From Candidatus Poribacteria bacterium (lineage in GTDB: Bacteria > Poribacteria > WGA-4E > WGA-3G), in the NCBI GenBank assembly GCA_022822085.1, contig JAJECK010000002.1:1-42807 (forward strand): a stretch of 42,807 nucleotides of DNA, in the 5' to 3' direction. The first letter of the stretch is position 1, and every line of letters begins with the position of its first letter. The notes under the pieces are model-generated. The model ran no database searches, was not told the DNA's origin, and was given only the letters and a program-made list of their open reading frames with translations. Shown here piece by piece: positions 12,998-42,190 of this stretch. Made by a program: the position numbers and the translations under genes.

Positions 12998-13444
12998 TCA
13001 AAACGGGTGCGAAAACAGGGTTATTTAGATTTAAGGCTTCCTTAATCATTACAATTCTTGTCTCGTGGAAGTTGAGTTTTCAATAGAAAATGCCGCACTC
13101 CAGCGGAGTGCTATGTCTATAGAAAACGGTTTGCACACATGCTCGCACTCCAGCGGAGTGCTATGTGCCGGAAATCACGGACCGCTCCGCTGGAGCGGAG
13201 ATGTCAGCACATAATATCAACTCACGTTTGGAAAAATTGTCCAAAGTTTAGTAATATTAAGTCCCTGAAGCGGAGCAATCACTGTATTAAGTGAAGTTAT
13301 TGATTCTTGTTTGAATCAGGATTTTCAGGATAAGATATTCATAATGTTGAAAATGTGGTATAATTGACTATCAACAGACATCAGTTTATCATAATTTTTT
13401 GCACCCATTTTAATCTCAGTAAGACTCTTATAAGGAGGGTTGTT
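12998..13444. other. Intergenic region with palindromic repeats
   Basis: No protein-coding gene is supported here. From left to right it holds the box upstream of the Ldh-gene promoter (13017-13032), an array of GC-rich palindromes (13095-13200), an AT-rich stretch, and a possible extended -10 promoter TGG-TATAAT (13356-13364) for the LamG gene that starts at 13445. Confidence 0.6.
13095..13200 (+). repeat. Palindrome array, CACTCC-AGC-GGAGTG type
   Basis: GCACTCCAGCGGAGTGCTATGT occurs at 13095 and again exactly 50 bases later at 13145; a related palindrome CTCCGCTGGAGCGGAG follows near 13185. The first copy continues CTATAGAAAACG, the same tail found after the GTCCC-type palindromes at 24214-24486 and 38704-38790, so it belongs to the same repeat family with a different stem. 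Confidence 0.7.
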
Positions 13445-14469: not shown

Positions 14470-14470
14470 C

Positions 14471-14612
14471 CTAATGAACTTTGACAATCAAAATCGGTAG
14501 TTGAATACGTAGGGGTTGGGTTCCCCAACGCGCTTGGTTTGTGAGTTTCTGTAGATCGGGCGTGGAAACCACCTCGGACGAATACCCAACTTGAACGTCA
14601 AAAGTCATTAGG
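14471..14612 (+). mobile_element. MITE-like element, family A, copy 1
   Basis: A 142-bp element with imperfect inverted ends: CCTAATGAACTTTGAC (14471-14486) against GTCAAAAGTCATTAGG (14597-14612), 14 of 16 pairing. Inside is the palindrome GTTGGGTTCCCCAAC. A second copy lies at 29342-29474 in the same orientation with very similar sequence. It encodes nothing and has the design of a non-autonomous miniature transposon. Confidence 0.7.
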
Positions 14613-15665: not shown

Positions 15666-15886
15666 GTTATTTAGTTTTAAAATTGTAGGGTGTTGAGTTT
15701 TACTAATAGTTAGACTTAGATTCCATCATTGCATAGTAGTAGGCACACTCCGTGTGCCGTAATCTCTTCTCGGTGGACGGCACACGGAGTGTGCCTACTA
15801 CCATGTCGGTTTCGCAGCTAATACCTGACCTACAATACAGGAACATCTGTGATAAAATGCATCAAAATCTTTAAAAACTAAATAAC
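15666..15886. mobile_element. MITE-like element with perfect internal hairpin
   Basis: A 221-bp segment is bounded by GTTATTTAGTTTTAAA (15666-15681) and its near-complement ending CTAAATAAC (15870-15886). Inside, a perfect 24-bp inverted repeat (15736-15759 and 15778-15801, 18-base loop) carries the palindromic word CACACTCCGTGTG. The right edge holds the AAAACTAAATAAC box that precedes the promoter of the next gene. The mobile nature is inferred from architecture. Confidence 0.55.
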
Positions 15887-24079: not shown

Positions 24080-24631
24080 TAGATTCTGTAGTCCGTATAA
24101 ATTAACCTAAAATTAACGTGAGTTTGATAATTAAATTCAAGAACCGCTGTGCGTTCGGTTGGGGAGCGAAGCCCATAAGTGTCAATTTAAGGATTTTGAT
24201 TTTGAGTCCAATTCTTCAGTCCCATCCGGACGCAATGTTTATAGAAAACGTTTGTCCACGGTGTCTTTAGTCCCGTAGGGACGATATGTTTATAGAATTA
24301 TGTTTGACTCCCCTCTTCAGTCCCGTAGGACGATATGTTTATGTACCTGTTATTGGTATCCAGATATCATTCGGACGGAACTCAAGAGGTGGTGACAGCG
24401 TTTTCTATAAACATATCGTCCCTACGGGACTAAAGAGGGTTTGAATAACGTTTATCTACAAACATATCGTCCCTACGGGACTAAAGAGGGTTTCTGTATT
24501 TGGAAATTCCTTAAGTTTACACCCACTGAATGCCATAAGGCATTCATAGCGTTGATTTATGGGGTTCGTGCCTCAACCCAACGGACGGATACATTTTTTA
24601 GAATTATCAAACTCACGTTAAAACTAAAGAG
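24080..24631. other. Repeat-rich intergenic region
   Basis: No gene is supported. It holds a short dispersed repeat CCCATAAGTGTCAATTTAAG (from 24172, also at 29317), five palindromic units in two opposed arrays (24214-24486), and the hairpin TGAATGCC-ATAA-GGCATTCA (24527-24546), which lies 86 bases downstream of the stop of the 24632 gene and may help end its transcript. Confidence 0.65.
24214..24486. repeat. Array of ~37-bp palindromic units at 50-bp period
   Basis: Units read CTTTAG-TCCCGTAGGGAC-GATATGTTTATAGAAAACG with variation. Three run forward (starting 24214, 24265, 24315) and two in reverse (24399-24435 and 24449-24486). Starts within each run are 50-51 bases apart, leaving 12-14 bases of unrelated sequence between units. 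The stem changes between copies but stays self-complementary; the tail ATGTTTATAG is the most constant part. The spacers are too short for CRISPR and no cas genes are near. Confidence 0.8.
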
Positions 24632-29220: not shown

Positions 29221-29341
29221 CGGTTATTTATTGAGTTCTGTCAGTAATATTTTGCACAGTATACAATTAAATCAACTGAAATAGCAAATATTCATGAAGG
29301 TAATTTTTCCATTCACCCCATAAGCGTCAATTTAAGGAATT

Positions 29342-29474
29342 TTGACAATCAAAATCGGTAGTTGAATACGTAGGGGTTGGGTTCCCCAACCCGCTTGGTT
29401 TGTGAGTTTCCGTAGATCGGGCGTGGAAACCACGCCCGGACGAATACCCAACTTGAACGTCAAAGTTCATTAGG
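29342..29474 (+). mobile_element. MITE-like element, family A, copy 2
   Basis: It is nearly identical to 14481-14612. The right end GTCAAAGTTCATTAGG would pair perfectly with the left end of copy 1, but its own left end is diverged and runs into the CCCATAAG repeat. Internal hairpins GTTGGGTTCCCCAAC and GGGCGTGG-AAA-CCACGCCC are intact here. Confidence 0.7.
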
Positions 29475-29560: not shown

Positions 29561-29682
29561 GTATCTCATAAATCAATTGTAGGGGCGGGGTCTCCCCGCC
29601 CGTTTAGAAGAACCCTTTCTATATAAGGACGAGGTAACCTCGCCCCTACAATGAAGGTGTCATATTATGATTTATGAGATAC
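29561..29682. mobile_element. MITE-like element with perfect 15-bp inverted ends
   Basis: GTATCTCATAAATCA (29561-29575) and TGATTTATGAGATAC (29668-29682) are perfect complements. Further in, ATTGTAGGGGCG and CGCCCCTACAAT also pair, as does the core GGGGCGGGG/CCCCGCCC. The element is 122 bp, encodes nothing, and lies 29 bases beyond the end of the sulfatase-like gene. No target-site duplication is obvious. Confidence 0.7.
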
Positions 29683-32879: not shown

Positions 32880-34874
32880 TTACTTCCGTATCAACATTTT
32901 GCGCAGGACCGACACATTGTCCGCTTGCAGTTGATAGAAATAGATACCACTTGACACCTTTTCACCGATCTCGTTTGTGCCATCCCAATGCGCCGCACGT
33001 CCACGCGTTTGATACGCACCCGCCTGTTGATGTCCCAAATCAAGTTGGCGGACCACAGTGCCACGCGCATCATAGATCGTAATCTGCACGTCACTGGCAT
33101 TTGCTAAACGATACGGTATCCACGTCTCCGGGTTAAAGGGGTTCGGATAGTTTTGGAACAGTTGGGTACGCTTTATCTGACCGAGTGTGACAGGTTTCTT
33201 GCCGCGTGACTCAACGGAAAACGGCTCATCCACATCTTTCTCATCAGCACGGGATCTGTAATCCCATAAGAGAATGGTACCGTCCCCACTTCCACTTGCG
33301 AGTGTTTTTCCATCCGGACTGAACGCTACGCTTTCGACACTTCCTGTATGTCCTTTGAGTATTCTCTTTTCTTCTCCGGTAGCAACATCCCACAGACGGA
33401 GGGTTTTGTCACCACTTCCACTTGCGAACATCTTCCCATCTCCACTTGCGAGTGTTTTTCCATCCGGACTGAACGCTACGCTAAGGACCCACCAGGTATG
33501 CCCTTTGAGTATTCTCTTTTCTTCTCCGGTAGCAGCATCCCACAGACGAAGGGTTTTGTCCCCACTTCCACTTGCGAGCATCTTCCCATCAGGGCTGAAC
33601 GCTACGCTTGTGACTTCTCCTGTATGTCCTTTGAGTATTCTCTTTTCTTCACCTGTATCAACATCCCACAGACGGATAGTGACACTTCCACTTGCGAGTG
33701 TTTTTCCATCCGGACTGAACGCTACGCTTGCTACCAACCATCCATGTCCTCTGAGTATTCTCTTTTCTTCACCTATATCAACATCCCACAGACAGATAGT
33801 GCCGTCCTCATTTCCACTTGCGAGCATCTTCCCAACGGGACTGAACGCTACGCTTGCAACCTTCGCTATATGCCCTCTGAGTATTCTCTTTTCTTCACCT
33901 ATATCAACATCCCACAGACGGATAGTGTCGTCATAACTTCCACTTGTGAGTGTTTTTCCATCCGGACTAAACGCTACGCTAAGGACCCGCGATGTATGCC
34001 CTCTGAGTATTCTCTTTTCTTCACCTATATCAACATCCCACAGACGGATAGTGCCGTCCTCATTTCCACTTGCGAGCATCTTCCCAACGGGACTGAACGC
34101 TACGCTTGCAACCTTCTCTATATGTCCTCTGAGTATTCTCTTTTCTTCACCTATATCAACATCCCACAGTCGGATAGTGTTGTCAGCATAACTTCGACTT
34201 GTGGGCGTTTTCCCATCGGGACTGAACGCTACGCTTGTGACATGTCCTGTATGTCCTTTGAGTATTTTCTTTTCTTCACCTGTCTCAACATCCCACAGAC
34301 GGATAGTGTCGTCAGAACCTCCACTTGCGAGTGTGTTTCCATCCGGACTGAACGCTACGCTTGCGACAGGTCCTCTATGTCCTTTGAGTATTCTCTTTTC
34401 TTCACCTGTATCAACATCCCACAGACGACTGGTGTTGTCAAAACTTCCACTTGCGAGTGTGTTTCCATCCGGACTGAACGCTACGCTTGCGACCGACCAT
34501 CTATGTCCTCTGAGTATTCTCTTTTCTTCTCCGGTAGCAACATCCCACAGATTGATGGTTTTGCCACTACTTCCACTTGCGAGTGTGTTTCCATCCGGAC
34601 TGAACGCTACGCTCACGACAATTCCTATATGTCCAGTATATAGGTCCAGTTCTTCACCTGTTTGTGCATCATATATCCAAACACCGATGCTACTCGCCAC
34701 TGCCAGTTTAGAACCGTCTGGGGAATATGCGATTTCGCGGTTATGTCCTTTGCCAAGCCGCGCCATCGCGCCTTCGGGTAACCCCCAACGTGTGTAGTCT
34801 TGAGCGAAGGTGTTTAATGTAAAGGCAAATATCGTCAAGAGGACAGTTAGAATGAAAAATAGCTTGTTTTTCAT
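32880..34874 (-). CDS. Secreted WD40 protein with 12 near-identical repeats and sorting module
   Basis: A 664-residue exported protein: signal peptide (1-24, ending FAQD), twelve WD40 repeats of about 42 residues (about 45-560; typical unit SVAFSPDGKTLASGS, then LRLWDVATGEEKRILKGH), and a C-terminal FlgD-like/type IX-like sorting module (about 580-664) beginning NYPNPFNPETWIPYRL and ending MLIRK. The repeats are nearly identical at DNA level (126-bp unit). One repeat has a short deletion (GSVTIRLWD), and one has an extra half-unit (LASGDGKMFASGSGDKT), both signs of slippage. AGGAGG precedes the ATG by 12 bases and abuts a MITE-like element. Likely a surface-exposed recognition protein. Confidence 0.88.
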   Translation of the reverse strand: MKNKLFFILTVLLTIFAFTLNTFAQDYTRWGLPEGAMARLGKGHNREIAYSPDGSKLAVASSIGVWIYDAQTGEELDLYTGHIGIVVSVAFSPDGNTLASGSSGKTINLWDVATGEEKRILRGHRWSVASVAFSPDGNTLASGSFDNTSRLWDVDTGEEKRILKGHRGPVASVAFSPDGNTLASGGSDDTIRLWDVETGEEKKILKGHTGHVTSVAFSPDGKTPTSRSYADNTIRLWDVDIGEEKRILRGHIEKVASVAFSPVGKMLASGNEDGTIRLWDVDIGEEKRILRGHTSRVLSVAFSPDGKTLTSGSYDDTIRLWDVDIGEEKRILRGHIAKVASVAFSPVGKMLASGNEDGTICLWDVDIGEEKRILRGHGWLVASVAFSPDGKTLASGSVTIRLWDVDTGEEKRILKGHTGEVTSVAFSPDGKMLASGSGDKTLRLWDAATGEEKRILKGHTWWVLSVAFSPDGKTLASGDGKMFASGSGDKTLRLWDVATGEEKRILKGHTGSVESVAFSPDGKTLASGSGDGTILLWDYRSRADEKDVDEPFSVESRGKKPVTLGQIKRTQLFQNYPNPFNPETWIPYRLANASDVQITIYDARGTVVRQLDLGHQQAGAYQTRGRAAHWDGTNEIGEKVSSGIYFYQLQADNVSVLRKMLIRK
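33250..34640 (-). repeat. Tandem 126-bp WD40-coding repeats
   Basis: Eleven highly similar units of about 126 bases lie within the WD40 gene. Units around 33780-33900 and 34030-34150 are nearly identical (GKMLASGNEDGTI context), as are their neighbours, indicating duplication of a two-repeat block of about 250 bases. Confidence 0.8.
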
Positions 34875-38661: not shown

Positions 38662-38703
38662 CACGAAAGCCATAACAGGGCAAAGGTTGCAGCGGAAAGG
38701 TAT

Positions 38704-38790
38704 CTTTAGTCCCATAGGGACGCATGTTTATGGCAGAACGTTGAGCACCAGGTCTTCAGTTCTGTCCGGACGGAATGTTTATAGCCAACG
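38704..38790 (+). repeat. Two palindromic units at 50-bp spacing
   Basis: CTTTAG-TCCCATAGGGAC-GCATGTTTATGG...CG (38704-38740) and CTTCAGTTCTGTCCGGACGG, continuing AATGTTTATAGCCAACG (38754-38790), start exactly 50 bases apart. They belong to the family arrayed at 24214-24486. They follow the Uma2-type gene by 43 bases and may also act as a terminator. Confidence 0.75.
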
Positions 38791-38891: not shown

Positions 38892-41822
38892 TTATTTCAA
38901 AATAGACATCTTACGCATAGCGGTCCAATCCCCTGCGGTGAGTGTGTAGAAATAGATACCACTGGCTACGGGTTCTCCGTGTGTGTTGCGACCGTCCCAA
39001 TAGGCTGCACGGGCACGGTCTTGGTAGATGCCGACGGTCTTATACCCTAATGTCAATGCCCGGACTAACTTACCATCGGATGTCCAAATTTCTATCCGAA
39101 CATCCGCAGGGGATGCAAGTTGATACGGTATCCACGTCTCTGGATTGAACGGATTGGGGTAGTTGGGTAATAACGCAGTCTGTTTGGGTGTCAAGGAATT
39201 CAATAGGTTTTCAAGGAATAGGATACCGCGCTGGAAGGCGGGATCGGATAGATTGAGAAGCCGTGCCTCGTGTAGCCATGCTTGGACATCTTCACGGGAT
39301 GGGAGATCAGACAGCAAGGTAGGGGCAGCTGCGTCATTACCGTTACCGATGGCTGCCGCGACTAACGCTAAATCTACGATGTTGACGATACCGTCCCCGT
39401 TGACATCGGCAAGATTAGCACCTACTTTGCCGAGGTTGGCTGCGACGAATGTTAGATCAGATATGTCCACAACACCATCAGCATTGACATCTTCGGGCTG
39501 AACGAAGGATTCCAGGACCTCCGCACCTGTGAGCTGCGGCACCGTGCTACCACCGAGACTATCTGTCAACAGCACATCGGATAGGGTGACGGTGGAGGCT
39601 TTACGCGCGATGACTTCAAAGGTGATAGTGGCGAGTGTACCGTCCCCATCGGATCGTTCTCCGAAGGAGGTCGCAGCAAGTCGAACCGTGTTTCCATCAA
39701 CGACCGTCGGCGCAGAATATGCGTTGGCGGACAGAAAATCTCCTGTGGTACTTTCAACAAAGGTGAGGACGGTGTTGTCATAATGCACGGTAGCTTGATA
39801 TCCTGCTACGTCTTGCCCTTCAGCGATGTCTAAGGACAGGGTGAGGTGTTCACCGATGGCAGGAGCCTGCACTTTGGCTGGAGATACACTCACCTGTGTG
39901 GGAGATGACACAACCGGCGTGATGTCCCATAAGAGGATGGTTTCGTCACCACTATTACTCGCCAATGTCTGCCCATCCGGACTGAACGCAACGCTGAAAA
40001 CCCAAAATGTGTGTGCGTCAAACTCGCGCAGTTCTTTACCTGTAACTGCATCCCAGAGACGTACGGTGTCATCGTGTCCACCCGAAGCGATCAGGGTGCC
40101 ATCTGGACTGATAGCAACGGAATGTAAGCCGCGGATATTCGCTATCGGTATGGTCAATAGTTCCGTGTAATCCGCTGCATCCCAGAGCCGTATATCTTCA
40201 AAACCAGCACTCACCAATTTGTGTCCGTTTGCACTAAAAGCCAAGTCCTGTATTCCGTGCGTGTGTCCTTCAAGCGTGCGTATATGTGTGCCACGAAGCG
40301 AATCCCAGAATCTGATGGTTCTGTCAAAACTGCAACTTGCGATTTCCGTACCATCGGGATTGAAGGCAATCTTACGCACCGGAAACGAATGTGCATTGGG
40401 GCGAGGAGTTCTACTGGTTAGACCGGGTGGCGGTGGTGTGTAGACGGTAATACTCCGAAGTTCTCTGCCGGTTGATACTTCATAGATATTGATGAACATA
40501 GTATTATTGTCGATTAAACCTGCTACTTTTGTTCCATCGGGGTTAAGTGTGACGCTATCAACTCGGTCTACCGTGTGGATCGGTGGACGTAGCGGATTGC
40601 CAGTTGCTACATCCCACAATCGGATAGTGTCATCACTGCTACCACTTGCGAGTATAGTGCCGTCTGCACTATATGCTAATGTTCTGATATATCGCGTATG
40701 TCCTATGAATTCGCGTTTGAATTTGCCGGTGTCAGCATCCCACAATCGGATAGTGCCTTTCAAACTACCACAAGCGATTGTATTTTCTGTGGGGCTGAAA
40801 ACGACTGTATTGCTGACATTTAGATGGGTTGTGAGTGTGCGTGTTTTCGTGCCCGTATTGACATCCCACAAATGGATTTCAGATTCATACCCACCACTTG
40901 CAATCGTATTGCCATCGGGACTGAAAGCGACTGCTCTAACAGTGCTGAAATTATCGCTGATTGTGCGTATTTCGTCACCAGTGTTTGCATTCCATAGACG
41001 GATGGTTTTGTCATAACTGCAACTTGCGATGATATTGCCGTGTGGACTTATGGCGACTTCATATACCTGTTCCTTATGACCGATGAGTGTACGTATAGGA
41101 TTACCTGTTTGGACATCCCACAGACGGAGGGTATCATCCTGACTACCGCTGACAAGCGTCTTGCTGTCGGGTGTAAACGTGAGGCTATAGACTGCATTTG
41201 TGTGCTCTGTGAGCTTGTACTTGAGTGTGCCTGTCTTCACCTCCCACATCACGATGGTGTCATCTTGGCCGCCACTTGCAATTGTATTCCCGTCCGGACT
41301 GAAGGCGATGCTGAGGATACCGGTCCAGTTCCTATGTCCTTTGAGTGTGCGTATGTTCTCGCCTGTGTCTGGATTCCAGAGTTGAATTACGCCTTGGCGG
41401 TCATTACATGCAATGATCTCTCCATCCGGACTGAATGCGACACCGTTGTTAAATATACTCGTCTCTACATCAAAGGTTCGCAGTTGATGCCCGTTCTTGA
41501 CATCCCACAGACGGAGGGTATCTTCTATCCCCGCACTCGCAAGCTTTGTGCTATCCGGGCTGAAGGCGATACTTTCAACGTCTACGGGTTCTGTTGCAAG
41601 GAATTGAAGTTCTTTACCTGTCTGGACATCGTATATCCACACTCCGATGGCTGTCGCTGCTGCTAACATTGTACCGTCTGGTGAATACTCTATCTCTTTG
41701 ATTGCACCTTTGCCGATACGGGCTTTTGTGCTTTCGGGTAGATGCCATTGCGGGGTGTCTTGAGCGATGACGTGCGTTGCTGCAATCAGTGTGATTAAGA
41801 TTGAATAGGATAAGTGTCTCAT
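38892..41822 (-). CDS. Large secreted WD40-cohesin-dockerin protein with sorting module
   Basis: A 976-residue exported protein. ATG 41822 is chosen because it has AGGAG upstream and begins a clean signal peptide (to about residue 20, VIAQD); the frame runs on to 42113 with low-complexity sequence. Order: WD40 repeats, about 13 (30-610, e.g. IAFSPDGNTIASGGQDDTIVMW, shown as a typical blade in part), a cohesin-like beta domain (about 640-775, VSVSPAKVQAPAIGEHLTL), a dockerin-like calcium pair (about 777-827, DVNADGVVDISDLT and DVNGDGIVNIVDLA), a helical spacer, and the FlgD-like/type IX-like sorting module (about 880-976, NYPNPFNPETWIPYQL, ending RKMSILK). Likely a surface scaffold. Confidence 0.88.
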   Translation of the reverse strand: MRHLSYSILITLIAATHVIAQDTPQWHLPESTKARIGKGAIKEIEYSPDGTMLAAATAIGVWIYDVQTGKELQFLATEPVDVESIAFSPDSTKLASAGIEDTLRLWDVKNGHQLRTFDVETSIFNNGVAFSPDGEIIACNDRQGVIQLWNPDTGENIRTLKGHRNWTGILSIAFSPDGNTIASGGQDDTIVMWEVKTGTLKYKLTEHTNAVYSLTFTPDSKTLVSGSQDDTLRLWDVQTGNPIRTLIGHKEQVYEVAISPHGNIIASCSYDKTIRLWNANTGDEIRTISDNFSTVRAVAFSPDGNTIASGGYESEIHLWDVNTGTKTRTLTTHLNVSNTVVFSPTENTIACGSLKGTIRLWDADTGKFKREFIGHTRYIRTLAYSADGTILASGSSDDTIRLWDVATGNPLRPPIHTVDRVDSVTLNPDGTKVAGLIDNNTMFINIYEVSTGRELRSITVYTPPPPGLTSRTPRPNAHSFPVRKIAFNPDGTEIASCSFDRTIRFWDSLRGTHIRTLEGHTHGIQDLAFSANGHKLVSAGFEDIRLWDAADYTELLTIPIANIRGLHSVAISPDGTLIASGGHDDTVRLWDAVTGKELREFDAHTFWVFSVAFSPDGQTLASNSGDETILLWDITPVVSSPTQVSVSPAKVQAPAIGEHLTLSLDIAEGQDVAGYQATVHYDNTVLTFVESTTGDFLSANAYSAPTVVDGNTVRLAATSFGERSDGDGTLATITFEVIARKASTVTLSDVLLTDSLGGSTVPQLTGAEVLESFVQPEDVNADGVVDISDLTFVAANLGKVGANLADVNGDGIVNIVDLALVAAAIGNGNDAAAPTLLSDLPSREDVQAWLHEARLLNLSDPAFQRGILFLENLLNSLTPKQTALLPNYPNPFNPETWIPYQLASPADVRIEIWTSDGKLVRALTLGYKTVGIYQDRARAAYWDGRNTHGEPVASGIYFYTLTAGDWTAMRKMSILK

Positions 41823-42190
41823 TGTTCTTGCTCCTGTCCATAAGTTTCTGATCTGTAGCGAGCAATTTGTATGCCAGTTTTTGTGGTGTTTGTTGCACGT
41901 TTTGGTGCAGGTTGGGGTTGTTGTTGCACGTTTTGGTGCTTTTGTCTGAATCAGAATGGACAGATGACACTGTTGGCATGGTTTGCAACCGCAGTTTGGT
42001 TCTGAATCTCGGAAAACGCGGAAGGTGCGGGGATTTAACAAGGGGCGGAAAAGAGGTTTTGCTTGGGTTTGATGGTTTTTCAACGGCGACAGTCCTGTAG
42101 GACAATCTGTCAAAATTCAACATTAACGTAATAGCAAAGAATCATCGAAGATATTGAAAACTAAATAACCCTATAATTGAATACTTCTGT
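41823..42190. other. Intergenic region upstream of the large WD40 gene and the toxin gene
   Basis: No separate gene is supported; open frames here are low-complexity extensions. It holds an 18-bp direct repeat TGTTGCACGTTTTGGTGC (41891-41908 and 41922-41939), the palindrome GTCCTGTAGGAC (42092-42103) related to the repeat family at 24214, and the box AAAACTAAATAACCCT (42157-42172). Confidence 0.55.

Follow-up and report, generated by a model that had tools for sequence, protein, structure and literature searches.

A stretch of 42,807 nucleotides from a Candidatus Poribacteria bacterium (called the window here, as a whole) carries short palindromic units in regularly spaced and partly opposed runs, which raises the question of what these arrays are and which machinery produces them. 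A preliminary description of the sequence had reported opposed runs of units of about 37 bp at 24214-24486, and this arrangement was confirmed. The array at 24213-24487 consists of three plus-strand units (starting at 24213, 24264 and 24314), a short centre and three minus-strand units (ending at 24387, 24436 and 24487), the innermost of which is degenerate, with steps of 49-51 bp. Repeats with the same step had also been noted at 13095 and 38704, and both were recovered as two-unit runs (units starting at 13095/13145 and 38703/38753) with a step of 50 bp; these shorter runs span 13095-13198 and 38703-38790. The unit layout is TCTTTA-GTCCC-GTA-GGGAC-GAT-ATGTTTATAG-AAAACG, and the folding of the 24213-24487 array was far above that of shuffled sequences (z = -11.3; 0 of 200 shuffles as good). 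The features are given below in window coordinates, with E-values from a profile HMM of the unit.

24113..24132, plus strand: left terminal inverted repeat (TIR) TTAACGTGAGTTTGATAATT, enclosing the whole composite; arms 100% complementary.
24173..24192, plus strand: left outer B module CCATAAGTGTCAATTTAAGG, from the sequence; the module is enriched beside arrays and rare in the background.
24213..24250, plus strand: outermost left hairpin unit, with the GTCCCATCCGGAC loop variant and a full ATGTTTATAGAAAACG tail (E 2.6e-10, and sequence).
24264..24301, plus strand: hairpin unit GTCCC-GTA-GGGAC (E 1.6e-12, exact match).
24314..24344, plus strand: hairpin unit with a damaged stem (GTCCCGTAGGAC) and a truncated tail (E 9.7e-07).
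24362..24387, minus strand: innermost right unit of TTGAGTTCC type, degenerate (E 0.057; compare loci L203 and L204).
24399..24436, minus strand: hairpin unit GTCCC-GTA-GGGAC with a full tail (E 1.5e-13, exact match).
24450..24487, minus strand: outermost right hairpin unit (E 5.9e-11).
About 24509-24525: right counterpart of the outer B module, interrupted by an insert reaching 24559.
24602..24621, minus strand: right TIR of the composite, pairing with 24113..24132.
13095..13128, plus strand: hairpin unit GCACTCC-AGC-GGAGTGC with tail ATGTCTATAG, from the sequence.
13145..13168, plus strand: second GCACTCC unit, 50 bp further, with a truncated tail.
13182..13198, minus strand: opposed hairpin CCGCTCC-GCT-GGAGCGG; copies in the relatives G010 and G001 have the same layout.
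13235..13253, minus strand: right TIR AATTGTCCAAAGTTTAGTA of the A-type miniature inverted-repeat element (MITE) carrying the 13095 array; its left end is decayed.
38703..38740, plus strand: hairpin unit GTCCC-ATA-GGGAC (E 3.4e-06).
38753..38790, plus strand: hairpin unit GTTCTGTCCGGAC (E 3.8e-07).

The insert that breaks the right outer module is a short palindrome, AATGCCATAAGGCATTCATAGCGTTGATTTA, at 24526-24559, and it also occurs inside units elsewhere (e.g., L060). A lone decayed unit, TAGGACCGATATGTTTATTGAAATTG, at 20540-20567 matches the tail half of the repeat.

The same organization extends over the genome of the window organism (G000; 5.63 Mb, fragmented, estimated completeness 96.5%), in which a 26-nt core with up to three mismatches was present in 138 copies, with none in a reversed control. 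The HMM, which replaced a first stem-plus-tail finder that gave many matches in reversed sequence too (203 against 135), was run over 965 kb of stretches fetched around the copies and returned 225 units; the reversed sequence, serving as control, gave 2. Neighbouring units on the same strand (n = 87) were 51 bp apart in 52 cases, 50 bp in 14 and 52 bp in 5, i.e., 71 of the 87 spacings fell at 50-52 bp. Opposite-strand neighbours followed the order plus-minus 37 times and minus-plus twice, so that runs converge with their tails inward. A second finder, applied to other contigs and to transposase loci, gave spacings of 48-53 bp in 82 of 92 cases. Because the HMM and the second finder give the same spacing and order, the period and the convergence are general properties of the units and no coincidence of the window; random spacing in other arrays, which had been named as the outcome speaking against the description, did not occur.

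Compensatory stem change had been claimed among the three palindromes of the window. For GTCCC-GTA-GGGAC and GTCCC-ATA-GGGAC this does not hold, the stem being identical and the loop alone differing; GCACTCC-AGC-GGAGTGC is a separate subfamily and the sole one of the three types with a different stem. Across subfamilies, on the other hand, the claim stood. Pairing was counted on tail-anchored units, i.e., units chosen by their tail only (a count on perfect-stem units was dropped as circular), and standard pairs were found in 411 of 475 cells, while the maximum was 359 in 1000 shuffles and 241 when the sequences were slid. A covariance without statistical support, the second outcome named as adverse, was thus not what we found. 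Both stem sides vary, the middle pair being, e.g., C-G, T-A or A-T. At the exact-tail sites of the window genome (n = 112), all five pairs were formed in 60 and four of the five in 34; the loop there also commonly takes a second form, GTCCCGTCCGGAC. This covariation over subfamilies supports selection on the hairpin, as the preliminary description had proposed. The tail, which it had considered constant and shared, differs by subfamily (ATGTTTATAG, ATGTCTATAG and AGGTGTATAG).

The search for transposase-like genes associated with repetitive extragenic palindromes (REPs), also suggested there, was productive. Sixty relatives were searched with Y1_Tnp and the flanks of the matches were then read, which revealed a Y1/HUH transposase (TnpA) flanked by units. 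In G005, an ORF of 157 aa (MANTYTQIYIHIVFAVE...) lies between plus-strand units at -82 and -31 and minus-strand units at +15 and +63; the flanks of another copy in this genome are similar. Other Poribacteria homologues are 62-75% identical, and in about 35 of the Poribacteria homologues the stems are different and the convergent arrangement is the same; stems at these other loci include GCACC-AGC, GCCCC-AGC, GCTCC-AGC, GTCCT-GTA-AGGAC, GCCCT-GTA-AGGGC and GCACTCC-GTA-GGAGTGC. Frequent positions of flanking units are -79 to -82 on one side and +59 to +61 on the other; the long arrays (L235, L237) step by 50 or 51 bp. Around 39 TnpA loci, we counted 49 plus-strand tails upstream and 65 minus-strand tails downstream, compared to 10 minus-strand tails upstream and 10 plus-strand tails downstream. 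The tail form (ATGT or AGGT) changes once on the TnpA tree, compared to at least four changes in 200 label shuffles. In addition, the TTGAGTTCC-type innermost unit of several gene-less arrays, including the one at 24362-24387, resembles the unit adjoining the TnpA stop codon in G005.

This association was also examined with a motif-free test, in which the upstream flank was compared with the reverse complement of the downstream flank and scored against shuffles. In 49 of 52 loci, which came from Poribacteria, Bacteroidota and Acidobacteriota, inverted palindromes common to both flanks beat each of the 25 shuffles; the sample is not random since ten of its genomes had been picked for holding a unit; in a Flavobacteriales sample that was not so picked, the fraction was lower (19 of 27 loci beating all 30 shuffles). 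Scores in direct orientation also beat the shuffles in 24 of the 52 loci, as palindromes would.

The protein scores 104 bits with Pfam Y1_Tnp and 88 bits with NCBIfam IS200 (cut-off 55), but 32.9 bits with the REP_Tyr_transpos (RAYT) model, under its cut-off of 80. Sequence matches were also obtained to IS200-like transposases with solved structures, ISHp608 TnpA among them. Of 33 proteins, nearly all have the motifs DHIH, W[QT] and Y---Q--HH (Y---Q--RH in the G005 pair), and DH[IV]H, W and Y---Q--HH occur in 27 of 27 Flavobacteriales proteins. The motifs published for TnpA subclass 1.2 are DH[IV]H, W[QT] and Y---Q--HH (Table 1, PMC6006769), and TnpA most likely belongs to this subclass, an assignment made by motifs and length. 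Distant relatives with Y---Q--HH that are 33-37% identical (L258, L272, L274, L278, L279, L282) are flanked by quite different inverted palindromes. Because these lack the ATGTTTATAG tail, the association of palindromes with TnpA may be older than the ATGTTTATAG-tail repeat type.

The window genome itself shows only TnpA fragments, of the AGGT-tail, GCACC/GCCCC type, and no intact gene was found in it; an intact copy may have been missed because the assembly is incomplete and its contigs break at repeats. Beside a TnpA relic on contig C135, the units form a clean tandem array whose spacers are conserved. GCTCC-type units number 12-47 in the four members of the genus with a cognate TnpA (G001, G007, G010, G014) and 0-27 in the other members, with none in seven of them. 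GTCCC units reach 138-252 copies in G004, G006, G014 and G000, where no cognate GTCCC-type TnpA was found. A relationship between copy number and cognate TnpA was thus rejected for the GTCCC type (G005 has both) and holds for the GCTCC type only. That the window genome shows fragments only, and of another type, and that the GTCCC copy number is not linked to a cognate TnpA, counts against a role of the Y1 enzyme.

Considering the position of the units around TnpA, we propose that the arrays are probably cognate REP-like end-repeats of a small IS200-like Y1/HUH TnpA of subclass 1.2, and that those of the window are transposase-less derivatives of REPIN type. The full form would comprise hairpin units before the gene, often in runs about 50 bp apart, and an inverted set after it, with tails inward; the window arrays would be the same arrangement minus the transposase, with convergent arms as in REPINs. 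We infer that units form hairpins when the DNA is single-stranded, e.g., on the lagging strand, where a TnpA dimer would bind one hairpin per arm through the stem and the adjoining ATGTTTATAG-type tail. Cleavage and rejoining beside the hairpins would then copy or move the array in trans. Arrays would grow by tandem duplication of a unit plus its spacer, and ordinary TIR elements (MITEs) would have taken up several of them and dispersed these further. The fixed spacing could follow from this growth, and perhaps from the setting of two hairpins for the TnpA dimer.

The site of the window array is empty in relatives: the interval between its two flanking genes measures 81 bp in G010, a single-contig relative of the same genus, versus 563 bp in the window, and it is also short in G009 and G015. 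These informative relatives are about 67-74% identical around the array, so that neither its exact insertion boundary nor a clear target duplication could be read there. Ortholog searches for the 13095 and 38703 arrays gave no clean empty site.

An unlikely alternative, but one to be taken seriously, is that the arrays are passengers, i.e., internal palindromes of ordinary DDE-type MITEs with several TIR types that alone disperse them, the Y1 gene lying merely among the repeats or being parasitic on them. The window array is indeed enclosed by the perfect 20-bp TIR pair at 24113/24602, and inverted modules of types B, C or D, which are rare in background windows, accompany 50 of 120 outer array sides. 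In G010, a GCACTCC/GCTCC array lies within an element of 344-346 bp with TIR ACTATAGTTTGGACAATT (L333-L341, L343), all ten copies of which are near-identical and have target duplications of 8-10 bp, a DDE-like signature. With TIRs, target duplication and no coding sequence, this A-type composite was amplified as a MITE in G010, and the 13095 array is, judging by its sequence and its right TIR at 13235-13253, a decayed copy of it. Because of the target duplications of the ten copies, the spread of the arrays need not all be due to the Y1 enzyme, and DDE-type hitch-hiking, seen for this one composite, may explain much of the copy number. The modules and TIR elements thus count against the Y1 reading. 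On the other hand, B, C and D modules are generally absent from TnpA-flanking arrays, where units lie at fixed distances from the gene and match the TnpA clade. Besides, most array sides carry no known module, and the outer ends belong to several unrelated types while the units remain constant.

Other elements were observed around the arrays. Unit hairpins are repeatedly interrupted by a palindromic element bounded by CGAAGATTAA...TTAATCTTCAT (L040, L051, L057, L073, L075, L352), which looks as though the element targeted them. Elements with B-type ends ATAAGCGTCAATTTAAG often lie between direct repeats of about 18-22 bp (L382, L386 and L392 in G004; L039, L048, L064, L079 and L093 in G000); several of these have the form GGT...ACC, they are not always palindromic, and they are unusually long for target duplications. 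The TIR AATTGTCCAAACTATAGTA occurs near the start (about position 120) of the G000 contigs C89, C90, C101, C110, C111, C112, C136 and C151; so many contigs starting close to it suggests an autonomous multi-copy IS that breaks the assembly.

It appears improbable that the units were selected for the host, with mobility being secondary, as terminators, mRNA stabilisers or an sRNA family, in other words as conserved RNA or regulatory structures. The strong hairpins and their covariation would fit such a function, as would the extragenic location (0 of 194 units inside ORFs, which cover 77% of the sequence examined). However, the clusters show no preference for the space between convergent genes (10 of 76, versus 69 of 565 overall), an Rfam search of the window gave no match, species of the same genus have anywhere from 0 to 252 units, and the units flank a transposase. 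The same patchy, transposon-like distribution also argues against protein-binding arrays in double-stranded DNA that are helically phased, e.g., for gyrase, IHF or a nucleoid protein, and we regard these as very improbable. The regular step of 50-51 bp would favour them, and the preliminary description had derived from it five helical turns, with all hairpins on one side of the helix. Neither claim is supported: with 10.5 bp per turn, the 51-bp mode amounts to about 4.9 turns, a non-integral number, some arrays with conserved spacers look like plain tandem duplications, and Y1 transposases act on single strands, as established for IS608 and ISDra2. Besides, stem sequences vary freely while pairing is kept, which fits single-strand hairpins better.

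CRISPR arrays have unique spacers of about 25-40 bp and run in one direction; despite the repeat length of about 37 bp and the short variable spacers in between, a CRISPR-like array is hardly conceivable and was rejected, as the spacers here measure 13-16 bp and include short families recurring between loci (e.g., ACGTTATTCAAACCC, ACGTTGAGCACCAGT, CGCTGTCACCACC), contrary to the 'unrelated' bases first described, and the convergent arrays are scattered over some 60 or more sites in the genome.

The proposed Y1 system shares features with several known ones. Standard IS200/IS605 elements (subclass 1.1) have one subterminal hairpin per end, on the same strand, with a guide 5' of each. IS608 and ISDra2 of this family encode a homologous Y1 HUH transposase, but a standard element was rejected, since the ends here are inverted arrays of several hairpins, and many near-identical gene copies are not seen. 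REPINs and REPtrons with a RAYT (TnpAREP class 2; PMC3116915, PMC3733652, PMC6006769) likewise consist of high-copy extragenic palindromes in inverted pairs around a matching Y1 gene, with dispersed transposase-less copies and the gene in one or few copies. Here, the transposase is flanked by its own repeat type in relatives and the window genome has only relics; the convergent inverted arrangement of a REPIN is seen, and the pair may be the mobile unit. Nevertheless, the units have no GT[AG]G foot (one strand has TTTA/TTCA at this position, the other TATC), they possess a conserved ATGTTTATAG tail and form 50-51 bp arrays on both sides, and the enzyme has Y---Q--HH instead of Y---NP. Membership in REP/RAYT class 2 was rejected for the lack of the GTRG foot and of a class 2 enzyme, although the system would work like such systems.

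CGTC-tagged REPs, for which a dedicated transposase is not known (PMC3733652), also form head-to-head dimers, and the GTCCC unit starts with CGTC on its other strand. They have an unpaired CGTC tag and a stem of 8-9 bp (PMC3733652), whereas here CGTC lies within the stem, stems are 5-7 bp with a 3-nt loop, and other subfamilies start with CGCT or CGCC; membership was rejected on tag and stem. The BrickBuilt MITE of Porphyromonas gingivalis (PMC4596501) is comparable in that an intergenic MITE contains a repeat array, but its 23-nt repeats have no spacers and form a single array, and no Y1 gene is reported in its abstract.

TnpA subclass 1.2 was described in 2018, mostly from Cyanobacteria and Bacteroidetes, with neither REPs nor IS features (PMC6006769). 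Our proteins agree with it in motifs, length (about 150 aa), low copy number and the presence of Bacteroidetes members; they differ from the published picture in the palindromes on both flanks and in their presence in Poribacteria and Acidobacteriota. Searches of the open-access literature returned no report of repeats or of a DNA substrate for this subclass, nor of such repeats in Poribacteria. We tentatively suggest, with a little less than even confidence, that subclass 1.2 is the enzyme behind an additional, independent REP system in Poribacteria, Bacteroidota and Acidobacteriota, in which recognition would rest on a hairpin and a conserved tail rather than on a GTAG foot, with ends that are often arrays spaced by about 50 bp and repeats that spread further via DDE-type MITEs. 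Linked in this way to specific units of DNA whose stems covary, the subclass would have a candidate substrate open to direct testing, which allows a comparison with IS608 and GTAG REPs regarding the evolution of hairpin and guide recognition. The occurrence of the repeats both around a Y1 gene and as MITE cargo also matters for the interpretation of REP copy numbers. Units of the same style are present in Flavobacterium and Acidobacteriota contigs; none was found in the viral contigs searched, therefore the unit is not phage-borne as far as this search extends.

The window contains further repeats. Two 101-bp copies at 14472-14572 and 29333-29433, 96% identical, represent another dispersed repeat family, with further inverted matches nearby at 14470-14499 and 29445-29474. 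Two long near-perfect hairpins at 15732-15805 and 29576-29652 are unrelated to the unit; arm length and complementarity are 29 nt and 97% in the first, 31 nt and 77% in the second. Tandem repeats of 126 bp lie within coding sequence at 33259-34740 and 39924-41578, and the ORF at 38892-42113 encodes a long WD40 protein.
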